Shown here: positions 3,066 through 11,624 of the stretch, in pieces
Numbering within the stretch: the first letter of the stretch is position 1
How the letters are laid out: every line of letters begins with the position of its first letter
Assembly: GCA_016763895.1 (NCBI GenBank)
Contig: JAESSV010000150.1
Coordinates: 1 to 16,907, forward strand
Direction: 5' to 3'
DNA from: Magnetovibrio sp.
GTDB lineage: Bacteria; Pseudomonadota; Alphaproteobacteria; Rhodospirillales; Magnetovibrionaceae
DNA length: 16,907 nucleotides
Made by a program: the position numbers and the translations under genes
The notes under the pieces: model-generated
What the model saw: the letters and a program-made list of their open reading frames with translations, nothing else
Told to the model about the DNA's origin: nothing
The model's database searches: none

Positions 3066-3277
3066 TCACAATAATTTTTGCTCGAATCAGAAAGCAGAAA
3101 TTAATATTTTTTCAGATAAAACAACCAATTTTTAGACATTTGATCTTAAATCACTACATTTTAGGAACTTTTTCTTGCATTCGCCAGCCTTTTGTTCTAT
3201 GTTTGTTCTTATTCGTCAGCTGCCCGGAATCCACAACAGCGCGAAGGCGGTGTGCCACAAAAAGGAAGATTGAGAAT

Positions 3278-4282
3278 ATGCGAGCGATTTTGAAACTGCG
3301 CAGGGCTTTGTCTGCGAATATAAATAGCAATCCAGAGGATGTTTTAGCGGCAAAGACCTTTTTGCAAAACCAAGGCCTTTATAAAGCGCCCGACTGGGGC
3401 ATTTCTGAATTTCCGGACCGAGCTTTGTTTAAAGCCATTGAAGCCTTTCAAAAAAACAACAATCTCCGCGTTGACGGGATCATGAAACCTAAAGGTGAAA
3501 CCGAAGCGGCCACGCAGTTTATCCAGGCCCAGGCCTTAAAACTGCAAAGTATGGGGCGCAACGGCGACACCATTCTTGCCCACATCACCCTGGGTGAAGC
3601 CAGATTGTTAAAAGAGAAAGGTGGTGCCGGGACGGTTAACCCCAAAACCGGACTGTTGGAGTTTTCCAAAGTAAGCAAAAAGAAAGGGAAGTACATCTGG
3701 CACACGGTGGGGGATGGCAAAGTGCGTTCCTCTCACGAGGATCGTGATGGTAAAGAGTTTTCATGGGATGAGCCACCAGGAGGCGGGCACCCTGGAGAAG
3801 CCTATAATTGTCGATGTTCGGCGGAAGATATTGTTGACAAGCAAAGGTGTAAAGAGCTCGACCGTCTCATTAAAGTGATGGAGATTAATCTTAAAAAGGC
3901 AGATGAACGTTATTCTAAAGCGGCAGACATATTCAATGCCGCCCAAAAGGCATTGAAACAACGCGAAAATAAATGCCTAGCACAACTGCGTAAAAGTGGA
4001 GCGACGGTCATACTCGACGGCGCCGCAGGAGGGGCTCTTGGGGCTATCGGCGGCTTGCCTGGTGTTGCTGTTGGCACGGCAAGAGGGGCGGGTATTGCGG
4101 TAATTAAAGAAGCCTCCGCTGTTTATGAAGCTTGCATCGTAAATGTAGCCAACAGTCAAGAGAAAGTAGACTTTGAAAAGGCTCAGGAGGACCTAAAAAA
4201 AGCTATTTTTTGGGTGAAGGCCCACAGGGAGGACTTGACGGCTTATCGTGATGAATATGAGCAGCTGGGATGTAAAAATTGA
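3278..4282 (+). CDS. Peptidoglycan-binding / phage Mu F-like minor-head domain protein with a glycine-rich membrane-like segment
   Basis: A 334-aa protein. The frame stays open upstream to about 3140 through a hydrophobic stretch, but ATG 3278 has an AGGAAG ten bases before it and directly precedes the conserved region. Residues about 20-75 resemble a peptidoglycan-binding_1 domain (helical repeat ending in LRVDGIMKPKGET). Residues about 98-182 match the C-terminal part of the Mu gpF/SPP1 gp7 minor-head family: GTVNPKTGLLEF, WHT at 141, H153, FSWDEPP, and HPGEAYNCRC with C178 and C180. Residues 185-235 are charged and helical. Residues 245-276 form a Gly/Ala-rich hydrophobic segment resembling a glycine zipper, followed by another charged helix. 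Mu F-type domains occur in phage heads and in polymorphic toxins. No capsid, portal or terminase genes are nearby, so a wall-targeting effector or an isolated phage remnant is more likely than a structural protein. It overlaps the convergent Sel1-like gene by 40 bp. Confidence 0.75.
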   Translation: MRAILKLRRALSANINSNPEDVLAAKTFLQNQGLYKAPDWGISEFPDRALFKAIEAFQKNNNLRVDGIMKPKGETEAATQFIQAQALKLQSMGRNGDTILAHITLGEARLLKEKGGAGTVNPKTGLLEFSKVSKKKGKYIWHTVGDGKVRSSHEDRDGKEFSWDEPPGGGHPGEAYNCRCSAEDIVDKQRCKELDRLIKVMEINLKKADERYSKAADIFNAAQKALKQRENKCLAQLRKSGATVILDGAAGGALGAIGGLPGVAVGTARGAGIAVIKEASAVYEACIVNVANSQEKVDFEKAQEDLKKAIFWVKAHREDLTAYRDEYEQLGCKN

Positions 4283-5259
4283 GGGGGGTCATGACTGAGA
4301 GTTAATTGGTAAGGCCCTGTTGTCGCATCAAGGTTAGCATTCCAACGCTCTGAGTCGGTTAACAAGGGTTCTAATGCCTTTAATTGTTCGGACACATCTG
4401 CACCTAAGATTTGAGCCTTGAGCAAGGCGAAGTAGGCATGGGGAAGATTTTTCTCAAAAACATCTCCTTCTTGCAGTAATTGAGCGGCCAGAACATATGC
4501 ATCAACGTTATGGTCTACGTTTGCTGATAGTTCTAGTAACAACATGGCTTTGCCGCTTGCGATTTTGACTCCATCGCCCAATGCCAATTGCCGCCCCAGT
4601 TGAAAACTTGCTTTTGTGTGACCTTTTATCTCCGCATTATAAAACCAGCGACACGCGACAACTTTAGATTCTGGATACGTTCCGTTTTTCAACACATCCA
4701 TGCCGATGTCATAGACAGCATCTACGGGTCCATTTTGTTTCTCTTTGATCCAGGCGAAAGCGTGTTCCAGGTGGGGGGAAAGTGTTGACGTTTGAAAGCG
4801 TTTGAACAGGTACTGTTTCCATCTCATAGGAGTAGTTAGTGTTATCATCAACAAGCGTGCACGTTTTGCCCATTCTTGGGCATTAGAGCCTTCTTCTCCT
4901 TCTTCTGTAAAATACAATTGAGCGAGCAAAAGCGCTGGTGTCGTTTCCCCGCGTTCTGCCGCAAAAATGAAAACTTTTTTGGCAAGTGGAATATTTACCT
5001 TAAGGCAAGTCCCTTGCCGTAGATATCCACCCAGAAAGATATGGGCAAGAAAAGTCGTATTGTGGTGGTCATAAAACCTCAGGCCTTTCAGGTAATCTGT
5101 AACAGCCGAGCATTGATCTGTATCGTCAAACTTTTCATATTGTTTTTCCCACCAGTCATCATCGTTCGTAAGATTTTCGCTTGCCCAAGCCGAGGGGAAG
5201 CCGAGGGTGAAAAGGCTCAAGAACAAAACAAGGAGGGTTATGGGACGAAGCAAGCGCAT
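4243..5259 (-). CDS. Secreted Sel1/TPR-like repeat protein
   Basis: A 338-aa protein with a clear Sec signal: positive N-terminus MRLLRP, a hydrophobic core at residues 7-21, and a likely cleavage after AWA at 26. The mature part is alpha-helical, with Sel1-like patterns at about residues 75-122 (ending in ALLLAQLYFTEEG) and 200-270 (SFQLGRQLALGDG and AYVLAAQLLQEGD). The repeats are degenerate, so the family call is tentative. Sel1 proteins are usually protein-interaction scaffolds in the periplasm. Its coding end overlaps the end of the Mu F-like gene by 40 bp on the opposite strand. A partner or immunity role toward that protein is conceivable, but only position supports it. The ATG at 5259 is preceded by a rather distant AGGAAG. 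Confidence 0.72.
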   Translation of the reverse strand: MRLLRPITLLVLFLSLFTLGFPSAWASENLTNDDDWWEKQYEKFDDTDQCSAVTDYLKGLRFYDHHNTTFLAHIFLGGYLRQGTCLKVNIPLAKKVFIFAAERGETTPALLLAQLYFTEEGEEGSNAQEWAKRARLLMITLTTPMRWKQYLFKRFQTSTLSPHLEHAFAWIKEKQNGPVDAVYDIGMDVLKNGTYPESKVVACRWFYNAEIKGHTKASFQLGRQLALGDGVKIASGKAMLLLELSANVDHNVDAYVLAAQLLQEGDVFEKNLPHAYFALLKAQILGADVSEQLKALEPLLTDSERWNANLDATTGPYQLTLSHDPPQFLHPSCSYSSR

Positions 5260-5481: not shown

Positions 5482-5754
5482 TTGGCATGGCGATTGAGCA
5501 ACACCATGGATGTGAGGTTTTGCGTTGATGCCCTAGACGAAGCCCTGGAACATGAATGCATCTATCTTCATGCTTTTCAAGGCGGCGCTGAAGTGCGGGC
5601 AGGCATCGGAAACTGAATTAACTTTTATAACCGGGACCACCCCTATACGGCGCATTGTGGACATACCCCGGCTCATCCTCGAGACAAGTTTAATAGCCGG
5701 AATCATCAATATGGGGCACCGATCAGAGAACATGATTATAGCTTAAATTCGTGA
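5482..5754 (+). pseudogene. IS3-family transposase (OrfB) relic with internal deletion
   Basis: Starting at TTG 5482 the frame reads LAWRLSNTMDVRFCVDALDEAL, the conserved region after the first catalytic Asp of IS3-family OrfB. At about 5548 it jumps directly to the C-terminal region (CIYLHAFQGGAEVRAGIGN, then INFYNRDHPYTAHCG). About 60 residues, including the second Asp and the catalytic Glu, are missing. A TGA at 5614-5616 stands where the family has Trp. After about 5660 the match fades. There is no OrfA and no recognisable terminal inverted repeats. The relic cannot produce transposase and marks an old insertion between the Sel1-like gene and the CTQ oxidase operon. Confidence 0.8.
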
Positions 5755-6197: not shown

Positions 6198-7574
6198 ATG
6201 ATGAATAGAATTTACCTTAAAGCCATTTTAGGCGGGGTGTTGCTTTCCTTAATCTTGACCGGCCAAGCGTCGGCTAAGCAGGAAGAAACATGTCCCAATA
6301 TAGACATTTCTGGGTGGTTCCCACACAGCACGACGCCAGAGCCGGATAATGTAAACTTCGACAGCTCGACGATATGTAATTTTCAGGAATGGTCATGGCA
6401 GATGTTTCTCTGGCTGACACAAAAGTCAGGGGATAAACCCCGGTTTTTATCTTTCGAATCGCCTTATGATTTGCTGGGCATCGAGAACCGCAGTGTGATG
6501 ATGCCAAGAACTACGGAAGCAGAAAGTTTCGACGAGTTTCTGCAGGCGGGCACAGACGGGATCCTTGTGGATCACAATGGCAATGCTGTTTATTATTCCC
6601 AGTATTTAAATGAAGCTTACACCAAATTTATAAGGGACAATTTTGAAAATGATAAAAATATAATAGACCCTGCTCTGATTCGTGGGTTCAGTCCGGATAC
6701 ACCTTTTCCCGTTGGCTCGATCGAATTGAAAGCTTCCTGGAAAATCGTAGAGCCTGGAGAAGACGCCAGCGAATTTTACACCATGGACGCTTCTGTTTAC
6801 CAGCTGGCCAACAGTGGTGGCAACATTGTCGTCGATACAACCAAAATCCGTAAAGTCAAATTGGCGTTGGTCGGATTCCATATCGGAGGCATCGTCAATG
6901 GTCATCCAGAGATGATTTGGGCGACATTTGAGCACATCAAAAATACGCCAAGCGTCCCAGCTAAATTCGAACCAACGACCATCGTATCGAATAAAGATTT
7001 CACCTTTTATAAGGCAGGCACCCCGTATTCGGGATGCAACGTGAATTATGCCGGTTCGCCATATCTAAAATTGGATGAGGCTACGCAAAAGCTGTTGCCA
7101 ATTGTTGAGGGGTGTCTGCAATACGAGTACGGAAACAGCGCAGAAAACGATCCAATATTACAGGCTTCCGTAGAGAAAAACGACAAACACATTAAGACAC
7201 TGAATAAAATTGTCAGGAAACATTTGCAAGATCCGGATGAGGATAAAGTATGGTCGAACTACCGTGAAGTCGGTTCAATCTGGTTCAGGCCAACAAATGC
7301 CCTGAAGCCTGACATGACCTTGGCCACTGATTTCGCCCCTGATGGGTCACAATTTCTGATCGGTTCGCTGAAGCTTTCAAACTCGACGATAGAAACCTTT
7401 ACGCAGTACCCAGCTTCGGTAAACAACTGTTTTCGCTGCCATAATACGCAGCAACGTTTCCCGCCAGCGGCCTCAGATGGTACACATCTTTTGCCTTTGA
7501 AGCCCATGAAACTGAATATTAGTTACGCATTCTCGAACATTTATTTTTGGTCTCAGCAGCTTCCGCAACAGTGA
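6198..7574 (+). CDS. Exported protein with a single C-terminal CxxCH haem-binding motif, first gene of the CTQ oxidase operon
   Basis: A 458-aa protein with a Sec signal peptide (hydrophobic core about residues 8-21, probable cleavage after ASA at 26). The start is ATG 6198 with GGGAG at 6185-6189; a second ATG follows immediately. The only recognisable motif is CFRCH at residues 411-415, a c-type haem attachment site. Several other cysteines (32, 60, 280, 306) could form disulfides in the periplasm. Trp-rich and conserved-looking blocks include WSWQMFLWLTQ (65-75), IELKASW (175-181) and VGFHIGGIVNGHPEMIWATF (225-244). It is far longer than a simple cytochrome c, so most of the chain is an uncharacterised domain. 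It lies about 100 bp upstream of a LodA/GoxA-like oxidase on the same strand. An electron-accepting or secretion/maturation role for that enzyme is inferred from position. Whether haem is bound is unknown. Confidence 0.82.
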   Translation: MMNRIYLKAILGGVLLSLILTGQASAKQEETCPNIDISGWFPHSTTPEPDNVNFDSSTICNFQEWSWQMFLWLTQKSGDKPRFLSFESPYDLLGIENRSVMMPRTTEAESFDEFLQAGTDGILVDHNGNAVYYSQYLNEAYTKFIRDNFENDKNIIDPALIRGFSPDTPFPVGSIELKASWKIVEPGEDASEFYTMDASVYQLANSGGNIVVDTTKIRKVKLALVGFHIGGIVNGHPEMIWATFEHIKNTPSVPAKFEPTTIVSNKDFTFYKAGTPYSGCNVNYAGSPYLKLDEATQKLLPIVEGCLQYEYGNSAENDPILQASVEKNDKHIKTLNKIVRKHLQDPDEDKVWSNYREVGSIWFRPTNALKPDMTLATDFAPDGSQFLIGSLKLSNSTIETFTQYPASVNNCFRCHNTQQRFPPAASDGTHLLPLKPMKLNISYAFSNIYFWSQQLPQQ

Positions 7575-7614
7575 CGGATAACGGCCTGCATCAAAATAAC
7601 GGCAATGGAGTTCA

Positions 7615-7641
7615 GGATCAGAGGCATTAGCCCTCTGATCC
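7615..7641 (+). repeat. Intercistronic hairpin between the CxxCH gene and the oxidase gene
   Basis: A perfect 10-bp stem, GGATCAGAGG (7615-7624) with CCTCTGATCC (7632-7641), and a 7-nt loop. No T-run follows, so full termination is unlikely. It may protect the upstream transcript end or set the ratio between the two products. Confidence 0.55.
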
Positions 7642-7661
7642 GCAATCCAGTTACATAATTT

Positions 7662-7668
7662 AAAGGAC
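7662..7668 (+). promoter_or_regulatory. Ribosome binding site of the CTQ oxidase gene
   Basis: AAAGGAC ends 6 nt before ATG 7675, a good match and spacing that fixes the start of the oxidase. Confidence 0.6.
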
Positions 7669-7674
7669 AGAACA

Positions 7675-9729
7675 ATGGTAAACAGTTTTTTTCGAGTTCA
7701 TCCGGCCATTAATATTGGACGTGTTGGCAACAGCAAAGACTATTATATCGCACCCGAAACGGCAGCCGGTAAATTGCAAGACCCGAGCACAGGGTTGTTT
7801 GGCGGGTTGCCAACTCAACACGGAACAGAAGACACCCCGATTGATTCCAGTGATTTCCGGGATGCCGAGGAGAAGGTCGTCCGTCAAGCCGCCAGATACC
7901 GCATTTATGCGTACGATACAGGCCAAGATACTTATCCTTCTACCGACCCGGGCCGAGAAGTAAAAATAGGTGATAAGATTGGCGACAAAGAGATTGTCGA
8001 CATCGTTTGGACCGTGCATCTCGCAAATAAAAAAAATAACGCCTACACCATTGAGAGCGCCAATGGAATAGACGAAGGGGTTGTCGCTTATGAAGATGGC
8101 CATGTTCCTCCCATCCGCAACCCGGAGTATGGAGATGAACTTAGCAATGAGGAAAGGCTTAAGCAGTTGGTGATTGATGCCGGACCGCGCGCCATTAAAT
8201 CAAGCAAAGGGGCCGCAAGTCCCGTTGAATTCAATGCGACCACGGCTTGTTGTCATGCGGAACAAAGTGGGAAAATTTCCGAAATCCCGGACTATCCCGT
8301 CAGTTTTCCAAGTGATTATTTCGAAATGTATAATTATGACGGTCCCATAGAAACTTTGGGCCAGTTGCAGATTGAAAGCGACACCGGTCGTTTGATTGTC
8401 ACGGGGGGATACGGCAAGGTAAGTGGAATCAAGGTTAATGGCAAAGAGCCGCCATTGAAAGACGCAGTCGATAACGATGGCTGGTTTGATGATACATCAG
8501 ACGGGCCGGTCAACGCTGTCATCGTTTTTGACGATCAGACGACATCTTCGGTGGTCGGCGGCTGGTTCTCTGAGACCGACCCAGGATACGCGCCACAGAC
8601 ACGTAATGTTGTATCCGTGTGGGACGACACCTTTAATACGTGGGTTGAAGAACTGGATTTGGTTCCAGACCTGTATTCAGATGGTAAGTATAACCCTTCC
8701 TACCAAGTGTCGTTCCTGGGTGAAGTTTTGCCCGTGTTCTACGCCGCTTTATTGCAACGCTGGAATACAAACTTCGCATCTAAAGCAATTAACGGCCATA
8801 ATCATATGGCCCAGATCACCTTTAAAGATAACCCCAAGGTGCAAATTCCCAACTTTAAAAGTCTGATCCGAGATCCGAATGTATCGGAGGAAAATGACGT
8901 GGGCGTAAAAATGCCTTTGGCCCTTGGCGATGCGATGAAACGCTTTCTTGCGGTCAGCAAGACTCAGTATTTTATGTTGATGCAATGGTTCGATGGTAAA
9001 TGTATTGAAGATGAACCCGCGATGGGTGGGGGCGAAACACTCGATAGGGTTGTCATGGAAAACCTGCTTGGCGGACGCTATTCGCCAGGCATTGACTTGG
9101 GCTTTATTGTCCGTGATGTGCATCTGTTCAAGGTGAATTGGAAAGGCGAGACGGGGCCCTTCCGCATCAATGAAGAGCCTTTGGATTACAGCAAGGTGCG
9201 CAAAGGCAAACCGTTCCTTGGGGTCGGTTATCTTCCCCTTAGGACGGCAATGGTCCAGCCGGGTGATCTTGGCAAATTCTTGTCGCAGCCTTGGCACACA
9301 GACTATAACAGTTGCGCTATTCACCAGACGGATCCCAACCCAAATAATGATAACACGCTCTACTGGTCGTGGCCGGCCCAGCGCCCCGTACAAGTGTTTC
9401 CGGCCAGTCTGTGTGCATATGATGTGGATAAAAAAGTTTGGAACCTCGGCGGACAATTATACAGTATCCGGGGTGACAACCTCGGGTCCGACAACCTAAC
9501 CCATACTGATTATCCTCAAAAAGAAGGGCGATATCAGGAATATACCGATTATACAGCTAATTGGCACAAGGTTGGTTTTGTTATCCAGGGCAGTCAGATC
9601 AAGACAGAGGATGGTGGTAACTACGGTTCTAAGTATTTCCTCGAAGTCGCAAGCCAATTCAACCCCACACCGAATGGCGATCCGACTGGATTTTGGCCGA
9701 CTGCGGCGATTCCAAAATCGAAGGATTAA
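7675..9729 (+). CDS. LodA/GoxA-like cysteine-tryptophylquinone (CTQ) amino-acid oxidase
   Basis: A 684-aa member of the LodA (L-lysine 6-oxidase)/GoxA (glycine oxidase) family, which oxidatively deaminates amino acids to release aldehyde, ammonia and hydrogen peroxide. Family features include the N-terminal HPAINIGRVGNS (9-20), then VVRQAARYRIYAYD (68-81), DTGRLIVTGGYGKVSG (236-251), and NDGWFDDTSDGPVNAVI (267-283). The C-terminal cofactor region reads QPWHTDYNSC, then TLYWSWPAQRP. C547 is the likely CTQ cysteine. D543, four residues before it, matches the Asp-x3-Cys spacing of LodA (Asp512/Cys516). The tryptophan partner is W566 or W564. There is no signal peptide, as in LodA, which is nonetheless exported. 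The flavoprotein gene needed for cofactor formation begins 17 bp downstream. The substrate cannot be read from sequence, so I give no lodA or goxA symbol. Studied family members have antimicrobial or biofilm-related roles through hydrogen peroxide. Confidence 0.92.
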   Translation: MVNSFFRVHPAINIGRVGNSKDYYIAPETAAGKLQDPSTGLFGGLPTQHGTEDTPIDSSDFRDAEEKVVRQAARYRIYAYDTGQDTYPSTDPGREVKIGDKIGDKEIVDIVWTVHLANKKNNAYTIESANGIDEGVVAYEDGHVPPIRNPEYGDELSNEERLKQLVIDAGPRAIKSSKGAASPVEFNATTACCHAEQSGKISEIPDYPVSFPSDYFEMYNYDGPIETLGQLQIESDTGRLIVTGGYGKVSGIKVNGKEPPLKDAVDNDGWFDDTSDGPVNAVIVFDDQTTSSVVGGWFSETDPGYAPQTRNVVSVWDDTFNTWVEELDLVPDLYSDGKYNPSYQVSFLGEVLPVFYAALLQRWNTNFASKAINGHNHMAQITFKDNPKVQIPNFKSLIRDPNVSEENDVGVKMPLALGDAMKRFLAVSKTQYFMLMQWFDGKCIEDEPAMGGGETLDRVVMENLLGGRYSPGIDLGFIVRDVHLFKVNWKGETGPFRINEEPLDYSKVRKGKPFLGVGYLPLRTAMVQPGDLGKFLSQPWHTDYNSCAIHQTDPNPNNDNTLYWSWPAQRPVQVFPASLCAYDVDKKVWNLGGQLYSIRGDNLGSDNLTHTDYPQKEGRYQEYTDYTANWHKVGFVIQGSQIKTEDGGNYGSKYFLEVASQFNPTPNGDPTGFWPTAAIPKSKD

Positions 9730-9746
9730 GCATAAGGGAAAGATCC

Positions 9747-10913
9747 GTGTTTGATCCAAAGATGCATGAAGAAAGGACCATCGCCATTATTGGCGGTGGT
9801 CCGGCCGGGTCAGCAACGGCCTTGTCCCTCGTGAATTCATTGACCGGATGCGAAGCGTCTCAAACTGACCGTTGTCAGGTGCATATATTTAATACGGAGC
9901 ACCCCACCACACATCGTTTTGGCGAATCCATTCCTCCCGCTGCAACGCCCGTATTAAAGCGATTGGGGGTTCAACAAATTGTCGAAGAGGGTGACGACCA
10001 CTTGGTTTGCCCCGGCAGCGTATCCGTGTGGAATAGCGATACGCCAGGGCACAATGACTTTTTTTGGGATATTGTCGGATACGGGTATCACCTTGACCGC
10101 GCGCGGTTTGACGAACAGATGTTAACCGCAGCCAAGAGATCCGCCTGTGTGACGGTTCACCAAGGCTGGCGCCTGACGAGCGCAACGAAACAGTCCGTGG
10201 GAATGGAGCTTGGGTTCTCCGTCTCGGGGAGGGCGAACAAAACTATAAAAGCGGATTTTGTTGTCGATGCAACGGGCAAGGCGGCTAACTTTGCCCGCCG
10301 CCTTGATGTCGCCCGAAATACATTCGACGAGGTGATATTCTTATGCTGCATGTTTGACATGCCCGAAGGGGCAAGCATGCTGAGCCACTCATTTGTGGAG
10401 GCTGTGCCGGAAGGCTGGTGGTATGCGGCCTGTTTACCGAACAATAAGGTCGTTATGACTTTTTGTACGGATGTGGAGGGCATGAAAGCCAACTGTTGGG
10501 ATGAACCGGACCAATGGTTGGGGCTCCTAAGGCAGACAAAATGGCTACACAAAAAAATACCGAACGCCCTCTTGCACACACCTCCATCCTCTCACCAGAT
10601 CACCATACAGGTGGCTTCATCGACGATCCTGTCAGCAGTCTGCGGAAACGGCTGGCTTGCCGTTGGTGACGCCGCCAGCAGTTATGATCCAATTACCTCG
10701 GCCGGAATCACGAAAGCTATGATGCAGGGTGAACTGGCGGGACAAGCTATTTCGGCGGCGCTATTTGAGGGAAAACCGGAAGCGTTGCAGGGCTACCAAA
10801 CCCGTGTGTTTGATGATTTTAATCAATATGTAAGTCTTCGCAACCAGCTCTATAGCAGCGAAACGCGCTTCACCAAATCGCGTTTTTGGCTCAAACGACT
10901 TGGTCATGCATGA
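9747..10913 (+). CDS. LodB/GoxB-like FAD-dependent oxidoreductase (CTQ maturation protein)
   Basis: A 388-aa flavoprotein of the tryptophan-halogenase-like/FAD monooxygenase superfamily. I chose GTG 9747 because AAGGGAA at 9734-9740 sits ideally before it; ATG 9762 is an alternative without such a site. Motifs seen are the dinucleotide-binding IIGGGPAGSATALSL (residues about 14-28), FGESIPPAA (about 58-66), VDATGKA (about 173-179), and WLAVGDAASSYDPITSAGI (about 303-321), the FAD-ribityl GD motif followed by the expected helix. In the characterised lod and gox systems the B protein is required post-translationally to make the CTQ cofactor in the A protein. The 17-bp spacing behind the oxidase gene supports the same role here. 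No transmembrane segment or signal is seen, so it should act in the cytoplasm. Confidence 0.9.
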   Translation: MFDPKMHEERTIAIIGGGPAGSATALSLVNSLTGCEASQTDRCQVHIFNTEHPTTHRFGESIPPAATPVLKRLGVQQIVEEGDDHLVCPGSVSVWNSDTPGHNDFFWDIVGYGYHLDRARFDEQMLTAAKRSACVTVHQGWRLTSATKQSVGMELGFSVSGRANKTIKADFVVDATGKAANFARRLDVARNTFDEVIFLCCMFDMPEGASMLSHSFVEAVPEGWWYAACLPNNKVVMTFCTDVEGMKANCWDEPDQWLGLLRQTKWLHKKIPNALLHTPPSSHQITIQVASSTILSAVCGNGWLAVGDAASSYDPITSAGITKAMMQGELAGQAISAALFEGKPEALQGYQTRVFDDFNQYVSLRNQLYSSETRFTKSRFWLKRLGHA

Positions 10914-11336: not shown

Positions 11337-11624
11337 TTAACGCTTTTTCTTGTTGTTGTGGAGCCTATGAATATGATGGACGAAGTCATAATTTTCAGCC
11401 GGAGTCCGACCCTCAAATGCTGAATGGGGCCGTTCCGTGTTGAAAAAGTTCACCCCGTCACCGATAACCCGTTTCGCTTTAAACCCATCAGTCACTTCAT
11501 GCAGGTATACGGCTTCGTATTTCAGTGACCGCCACAACCGTTCAATAAAGATATTGTCCATGTATTGACCACATCCGTCCATCGGGATCGTGATCTGTGC
11601 GTGTTGCAAAACGCCTAAATACAT
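11337..11624 (-). pseudogene. IS3-family OrfB C-terminal fragment
   Basis: A 95-codon open frame that covers only the end of the DDE integrase core. The catalytic Glu of IERLWRSLKYE is retained and the two Asp residues are absent. It ends in a lysine-rich tail. A nonfunctional remnant of the element described for 11253-11809. Confidence 0.85.

Follow-up and report, generated by a model that had tools for sequence, protein, structure and literature searches.

The three genes at positions 6198 to 10913 of a contig from Magnetovibrio sp. (C96; all 16,907 bases were analysed and are called the window) form a real conserved unit, in which a gene for an exported haem c protein leads the genes for a LodA-like cysteine tryptophylquinone (CTQ) oxidase and a LodB-like flavoprotein. 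As a tentative but quite possible reading, we propose that the exported haem enzyme uses the hydrogen peroxide made by the CTQ oxidase. The contig belongs to a genome assembly of 1.94 Mb that is 59% complete, and the three open reading frames occupy one strand, as had originally been predicted, with the following layout:

6198..7574, + strand: gene for the exported haem c protein, 458 residues (open reading frame, homologues, CFRCH)
6729..6731, + strand: K178 codon; this lysine is unchanged in all 40 divergent homologues and, in a weak alignment, lies opposite Lys106 of NsP460, a cross-link lysine
7428..7442, + strand: codons of the haem-binding motif CFRCH (residues 411-415)
7615..7641, + strand: hairpin between the haem gene and lodA, a perfect 10-bp stem with no T run after it
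7675..9729, + strand: LodA-like CTQ oxidase, 684 residues (LodA_N, LodA_C; C547, W566, D543)
9693..10913, + strand: LodB/GoxB-like flavoprotein, likely a CTQ maturase (coordinates of the longest frame; the start is more likely at 9747 or 9762)

Conservation of the three-gene unit

Using local profiles, lodA was found directly downstream of the haem gene and on the same strand in all 11 loci that have close homologues of the haem protein (at least 390 bits) and readable DNA, namely the window, L002, L003 and L010-L017. A twelfth paired locus, in genome G675 (L134, 301 bits), was retrieved by a search starting from LodA. The gap between the two genes ranges from -1 to 88 bp in ten loci (longest frames), and amounts to approximately 75 bp in L134 and 100 bp in the window. 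An all-against-all comparison of the 12 paired loci showed the haem gene and lodA in every locus and lodB in nine; the DNA of L010, L011 and L017 stops within lodA or shortly behind it and does not reach lodB. Shadow frames aside, no fourth gene recurred in three or more of these loci, and nearly every gene common to two of them was shared between the two Xanthomonas loci. The hosts comprise Alphaproteobacteria (Eilatimonas), Gammaproteobacteria (Bermanella, Kangiellaceae, Pseudoalteromonas and Xanthomonas) and one Chitinophagales genome, and two copies of the paired cassette reside on large plasmids. The original prediction that the three genes belong together, with a dedicated haem protein at their head, is borne out by the gene order kept in the 11 close loci, and the literature searches made retrieved no paper describing a LodA-LodB trio with a haem protein. 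LodA and P460 are mentioned together in five papers, of which the four listed are medical texts on unrelated subjects.

No LodA was found in the 17 loci whose homologue of the haem protein is distant (L004-L009 and L018-L028, at most 364 bits), one of which, L021, stops at a contig end with its downstream gene unseen. The border of the pairing is blurred, with L134 paired at 301 bits and L004 unpaired at 364 bits. Among 398 genomes of the phylum, in each of which at most four candidates were scored, the haem profile matched in 14, and only the match in the window stands beside lodA. The original prediction was to fall if homologues of the haem protein mostly occurred without LodA-like genes; this is the case for the superfamily (a lodA neighbour in one of the 14) but not for the close subfamily (11 of 11). 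Two Pseudoalteromonas plasmids encode distant homologues of both the haem protein and LodA, approximately 177 and 209 kb apart.

The oxidase and the flavoprotein

The 684-residue protein matched LodA_N (E 2.9e-49) and LodA_C (E 3.3e-29), both over the curated cut-offs, and the flavoprotein matched the LodB (239.3 bits, E 6.6e-71) and GoxB (216.3 bits) models, in agreement with the LodA/LodB and GoxA/GoxB layout recognised in the original prediction. In LodA, the CTQ is formed by C516 and W581, according to PMC4417212. C547 of the window oxidase aligned with LodA C516 and D543 with residue 512 (counted from the alignment), and C547, W566 and D543 were identical in all 22 LodA rows having residues there (23 aligned). 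The oxidase scored far below the NCBIfam equivalog cut-offs of LodA (193.7 versus 600 bits) and GoxA (135 versus 750 bits), and its substrate can therefore not be named. Similarly, the flavoprotein stayed below the curated cut-off of 400 bits set for each maturase model, which makes it a homologue and not an equivalog of LodB; it is the likely CTQ maturase. Its longest frame starts at TTG 9693, though GTG 9747 or ATG 9762 fit better when the sequence is read. By inspection, no signal peptide was found in the window LodA, nor in the LodAs of the other loci read.

The exported haem protein

The 458-residue protein begins with a hydrophobic segment followed by AxA, typical of export, and holds a single C..CH motif (CFRCH, residues 411-415) near its C-terminus, which confirms the upstream, same-strand exported protein with one c-type haem motif that had been predicted. 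Its cysteines are six in number (32, 60, 280, 306, 411 and 414). A protein search, in which 7,991 candidates were scored (those sharing most words), yielded 482 homologues at E <= 0.001. Each of the 120 homologues listed has exactly one C..CH (CFRCH in 119, CLRCH in one), and the named proteins among them are "hypothetical proteins"; profile A1 of the haem protein was built from 36 of these 120. No relative was found in the viral contigs searched, and among 150 genomes of the host's own order relatives were present at E <= 1e-20 in three besides the host, all of them distant (34% identity).

A crude rule assigned the N-termini of the 120 homologues to AxA-type signals (44), lipoboxes (21), other hydrophobic segments (37) and unclear cases (11), and classed the remaining seven as fragments, P0005 wrongly so. 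Signal-type or hydrophobic N-termini in most homologues, next to a LodA without a signal, would be consistent with the haem protein acting as an export or anchoring factor for the oxidase. We regard this as extremely unlikely, since the haem site and an invariant lysine, described below, indicate chemistry, and most relatives have no adjacent LodA to export.

The domain had been described in the original prediction as mostly uncharacterised. This holds at the level of database matches, as neither Pfam nor NCBIfam matched the protein, and a search of the sequences of solved structures (PDB) gave no match at E up to 5. For the fold, the description probably does not stand, since a large relative of the cytochrome P460/c'-beta type is suggested by two structure models together with weak matches in sequence. 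Members of that superfamily have a twisted five-stranded antiparallel sheet. Foldseek alone gave nothing at E <= 0.001 with either model, and with the second model P460 and c'-beta chains were absent from the top 50. The window protein does not exceed the gathering score of Pfam PF16694, which matched four of 40 relatives at E up to 1 (best 0.0018). The P460 profile A2 was made from 16 of 19 loci, with L099, L109 and L114 left out.

Alignment A3 was drawn from 48 homologues above 40 bits, from which four (no C..CH or fewer than 400 residues) and five near-duplicates (L011, L013, L015, L020 and L025) were excluded, and to which P0001 was added. K178, H228 and E245 were invariant in all 40 of these divergent homologues. 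The conservation of C..CH in A3 arises by construction, as homologues lacking the motif were excluded, but this does not apply to K178, H228 and E245. In a weak alignment, K178 falls on Lys106 of NsP460, the lysine that is cross-linked to the haem. A single, weak match of profile A3 to a photosynthetic cytochrome among the PDB sequences (E 0.27) was disregarded.

Hydroxylamine-oxidising P460s have the cross-link lysine (PMC11928373), and the P460-like predicted fold with its invariant K178 would fit an enzyme of reactive nitrogen, in which the haem protein, like P460 and c'-beta, would either bind nitric oxide or oxidise a product of the hydroxylamine or oxime type, with the oxidase as a source of the nitrogen compound or a competitor for it. 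Such a function seems distinctly unlikely, as the distal carboxylate required for hydroxylamine oxidation could not be placed, though H228 and E245 are invariant.

Partner genes seen from the oxidase

PF17990 was detected in 12 of the 398 genomes of the phylum (13 loci) and, over cut-off, in nine of 369 genomes of the class of G186; three genomes occur in both samples, which together hold 19 distinct LodA loci. A haem gene lies directly upstream in two of the 19, the window and G675. By local profile score, three of the 19 LodAs belong to the window clade (above 600 bits; the others at most 276), namely the haem-led LodAs of the window and G675 and a ferritin-led one on contig C36. The latter (L065, 5034-9358) is a second LodA-LodB pair of the same genome as the window, headed by a gene for a ferritin-like protein (PF12902, E 3.9e-29). 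A LodA match was present in 29 plasmid records; both of those with at least 50% identity are haem-led, and none of the six read among the other 27 (at most 31.1% identity) is. Seen from the LodA side and with the window excluded, three of four clade LodAs are haem-led.

These counts bear on a maturase role, in which the haem protein would catalyse an oxidation late in the making of CTQ, like the di-haem MauG in the making of tryptophan tryptophylquinone. Haem-driven completion of the cofactor is known or proposed in related quinoproteins (PMC7876137). Nevertheless, 17 of the 19 LodA loci lack an upstream haem gene, including the second LodA of the host's own genome, and across the 398 genomes the superfamily stands beside LodA only in the window, which leaves this role very unlikely.

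The upstream partner, whether haem protein, ferritin-like protein or tyrosinase, largely follows the LodA clades. A branch of a 33-row LodA tree (92/92; 90% of bootstrap trees) sets the 11 haem-led LodAs apart, and the ferritin-led L065 adjoins them; the fragment L010 was removed before LodA trees were made, and the long branch L076 before the 33-row tree. The four partner labels (haem, ferritin, tyrosinase and other, the last including several rows in which no metalloprotein was found) require three changes on the tree, which is the minimum, against a mean of 16.0 when shuffled, and the label ferritin alone needs two. The haem-led clade is partly selected, since most of the haem-led rows came from searches made with the haem protein; besides the window, searches starting from LodA retrieved three of the 11 as well, and two of these, L002 and L003, were also in the local LodA profile.

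Ferritin-like genes lead L071, L072, L130 and, by annotation, L116, tyrosinase leads L074, L075 and, by annotation, L118, and in L121 the LodA is fused to a Haem_oxygenas_2 domain. In PMC4417212, LodA-like operons of group ID are described with tyrosinase/multicopper oxidase genes, fungal LodA-like proteins with ferritin-like partner genes, and fusions as being of catalase or iron-redox-enzyme type; the word "cytochrome" occurs 0 times in its main text, the supplements lying outside the count. In Mycetohabitans (L117, 199-5896), an annotated Dyp-type peroxidase gene is followed on the same strand by two unknown genes and a LodA-like gene. Two genomes share another gene order (L008, 1924-7047, and L088, 2021-7091), in which a tyrosinase-like gene precedes a gene for a protein of 577-579 residues without a Pfam match and then a relative of the haem gene. 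Large neighbouring genes that matched no Pfam family also accompany distant haem relatives in L082, L088 and L093.

A possible peroxide-coupled pair

On the reading favoured here, every catalytic step of which we infer, the cassette would combine a LodA-like CTQ amino-acid or amine oxidase, a LodB-like cofactor builder and an exported haem c enzyme. By homology, LodB would complete the CTQ in LodA, and LodA would then oxidise an amine or amino acid with oxygen, giving hydrogen peroxide. Characterised LodA-family oxidases are described as giving off hydrogen peroxide (PMC4417212, PMC4699246). The peroxide would reach the periplasm and oxidise the haem of the partner, a peroxide-using enzyme whose substrate may be the imine or aldehyde that the oxidase itself produces, and which would also curb peroxide damage. 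Coupling through hydrogen peroxide would be feasible between a signal-less oxidase and an exported partner, since no protein contact is needed; PfaP, a relative of LodA, is reported to be extracellular. NeCP-beta forms a ferryl species with hydrogen peroxide and shows guaiacol peroxidase activity, and NeP460 behaves in this way only when its lysine is absent. The P460 cross-link has been formed by peroxide in vitro, and if K178 forms a haem-lysine bond of the P460 type, the same peroxide could mature that cofactor.

Two points weigh against this reading, as cross-linked P460 is not a peroxidase, and the distant relatives found beside GMC genes (four of 34 loci) fit a role in electron transfer. 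A more far-reaching form, which we consider unlikely, is a self-maturing pair, in which the peroxide of the oxidase would install the P460-type haem-lysine bond in the exported partner and then drive the chemistry of that partner. CTQ and a cross-linked haem would thereby be made and used within one cassette, and the partner would represent a large branch of the P460 fold that has gone unrecognised and that works for oxidases (CTQ, GMC), not in nitrification.

The main alternative, somewhat unlikely in our view, is that reduced CTQ hands its electrons directly to the haem protein, which relays them to the respiratory chain in the manner of the multihaem c subunits of membrane GMC/FAD dehydrogenases, so that the oxidase becomes a dehydrogenase. 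Such complexes usually include a cytochrome c subunit. The haem protein is exported and carries a single haem c, and the four GMC oxidoreductase genes adjoining its distant relatives were identified by Pfam (L081, L084), by annotation (L009) and by similarity to L009 (L083). A small gene matching FAD-SLDH lies in between in L009 (E 3.9e-5, just over the cut-off) and L083 (E 0.0028, below it), and a gene of similar size without a Pfam match occupies this position in L081. The GMC gene of L084, however, adjoins a second, very weak haem copy (21 bits). Moreover, the absence of a signal peptide from LodA in the loci read leaves contact across the membrane unexplained, and the potentials of P460 haems (approximately -340 to -424 mV) and of a c'-beta (-205 mV; PMC11928373, Table 3) are poor for accepting quinol electrons, which would disfavour direct transfer. 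As for the gene order itself, L009 and L083 look as if a P460-like protein had replaced the usual multihaem cytochrome subunit.

Taken together, the results suggest that the CTQ oxidase and the haem enzyme work as a pair. LodA-family CTQ oxidases are known as peroxide makers, and P460-type haems have been studied mainly in ammonia- and methane-oxidising bacteria. With a peroxide-using haem enzyme at its head, the cassette would be a concrete candidate for the partner that limits or uses LodA-family peroxide, and a possible reading is offered for a large family of hypothetical proteins. A simple rule is also suggested, by which the metalloprotein partner of LodA-like oxidases varies by clade.

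Intergenic region and flanks

None of the promoter- or terminator-like sites found falls within the 100-bp gap between the haem gene and lodA. The hairpin in this gap has a fold z-score of -2.97, and no second copy was found in the 1.94-Mb, 59%-complete assembly. When ten intergenic stretches between haem gene and lodA were folded, the hairpin of L016 was much stronger and that of L011 moderate, with little or weaker structure in the rest. Transposase remnants lie on either side of the cassette:

5521..5688, + strand: decayed transposase (rve-like) fragment with an internal stop, left flank (sequence match)
11337..11624, - strand: transposase (rve_3) fragment, right flank (Pfam match)

The two fragments are of the integrase core, related to each other and inward-facing, and the position of the cassette between them suggests that it was acquired via a mobile element; no further copies of the fragments were found in the same incomplete assembly. 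Further upstream, positions 3140-4282 encode a protein in which a peptidoglycan-binding domain is combined with a Phage_Mu_F-like one. Elsewhere in the genome it has three partial relatives, of which two contain stops and one lies at approximately 12852-13463 of L065, about 3.5 kb from the second lodB. The 3' end of the 3140-4282 gene overlaps that of the gene at 4243-5259 (- strand), whose 338-residue product starts with a signal-like segment and matched no Pfam family.

Comparison with known systems

The cassette resembles the lod and gox operons (LodA/LodB and GoxA/GoxB, Marinomonas mediterranea) in having a CTQ oxidase gene followed by that of a flavoprotein maturase, and in the LodA_N/LodA_C domains and the CTQ cysteine and tryptophan, but differs from them by the additional upstream haem c gene. 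GoxA, moreover, has a Tat signal (PMC3948610), whereas the window oxidase has none. Other LodA-like operons similarly have a second metalloprotein adjacent or fused (PMC4417212), while the partner in the window is an unrelated, P460-like haem c protein. With the P460/c'-beta superfamily (NeP460, NsP460, McCP-beta and NeCP-beta), the haem protein shares the predicted fold, a haem c motif near the C-terminus and, in the weak alignment, the lysine K178 at the cross-link position. It is, however, approximately two to three times longer (458 residues versus about 135-200 in solved members), has four further conserved cysteines, gives no PF16694 match and is partnered with an oxidase. Quinohaemoprotein amine dehydrogenase (Qhp) is likewise a CTQ enzyme that operates with c-type haem, but, as described in PMC7876137, its di-haem subunit is part of the same complex and its maturation genes are QhpD and QhpG. 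The window cassette, with one haem motif, a P460-like predicted fold and a LodA-type catalytic chain, falls outside the Qhp type.
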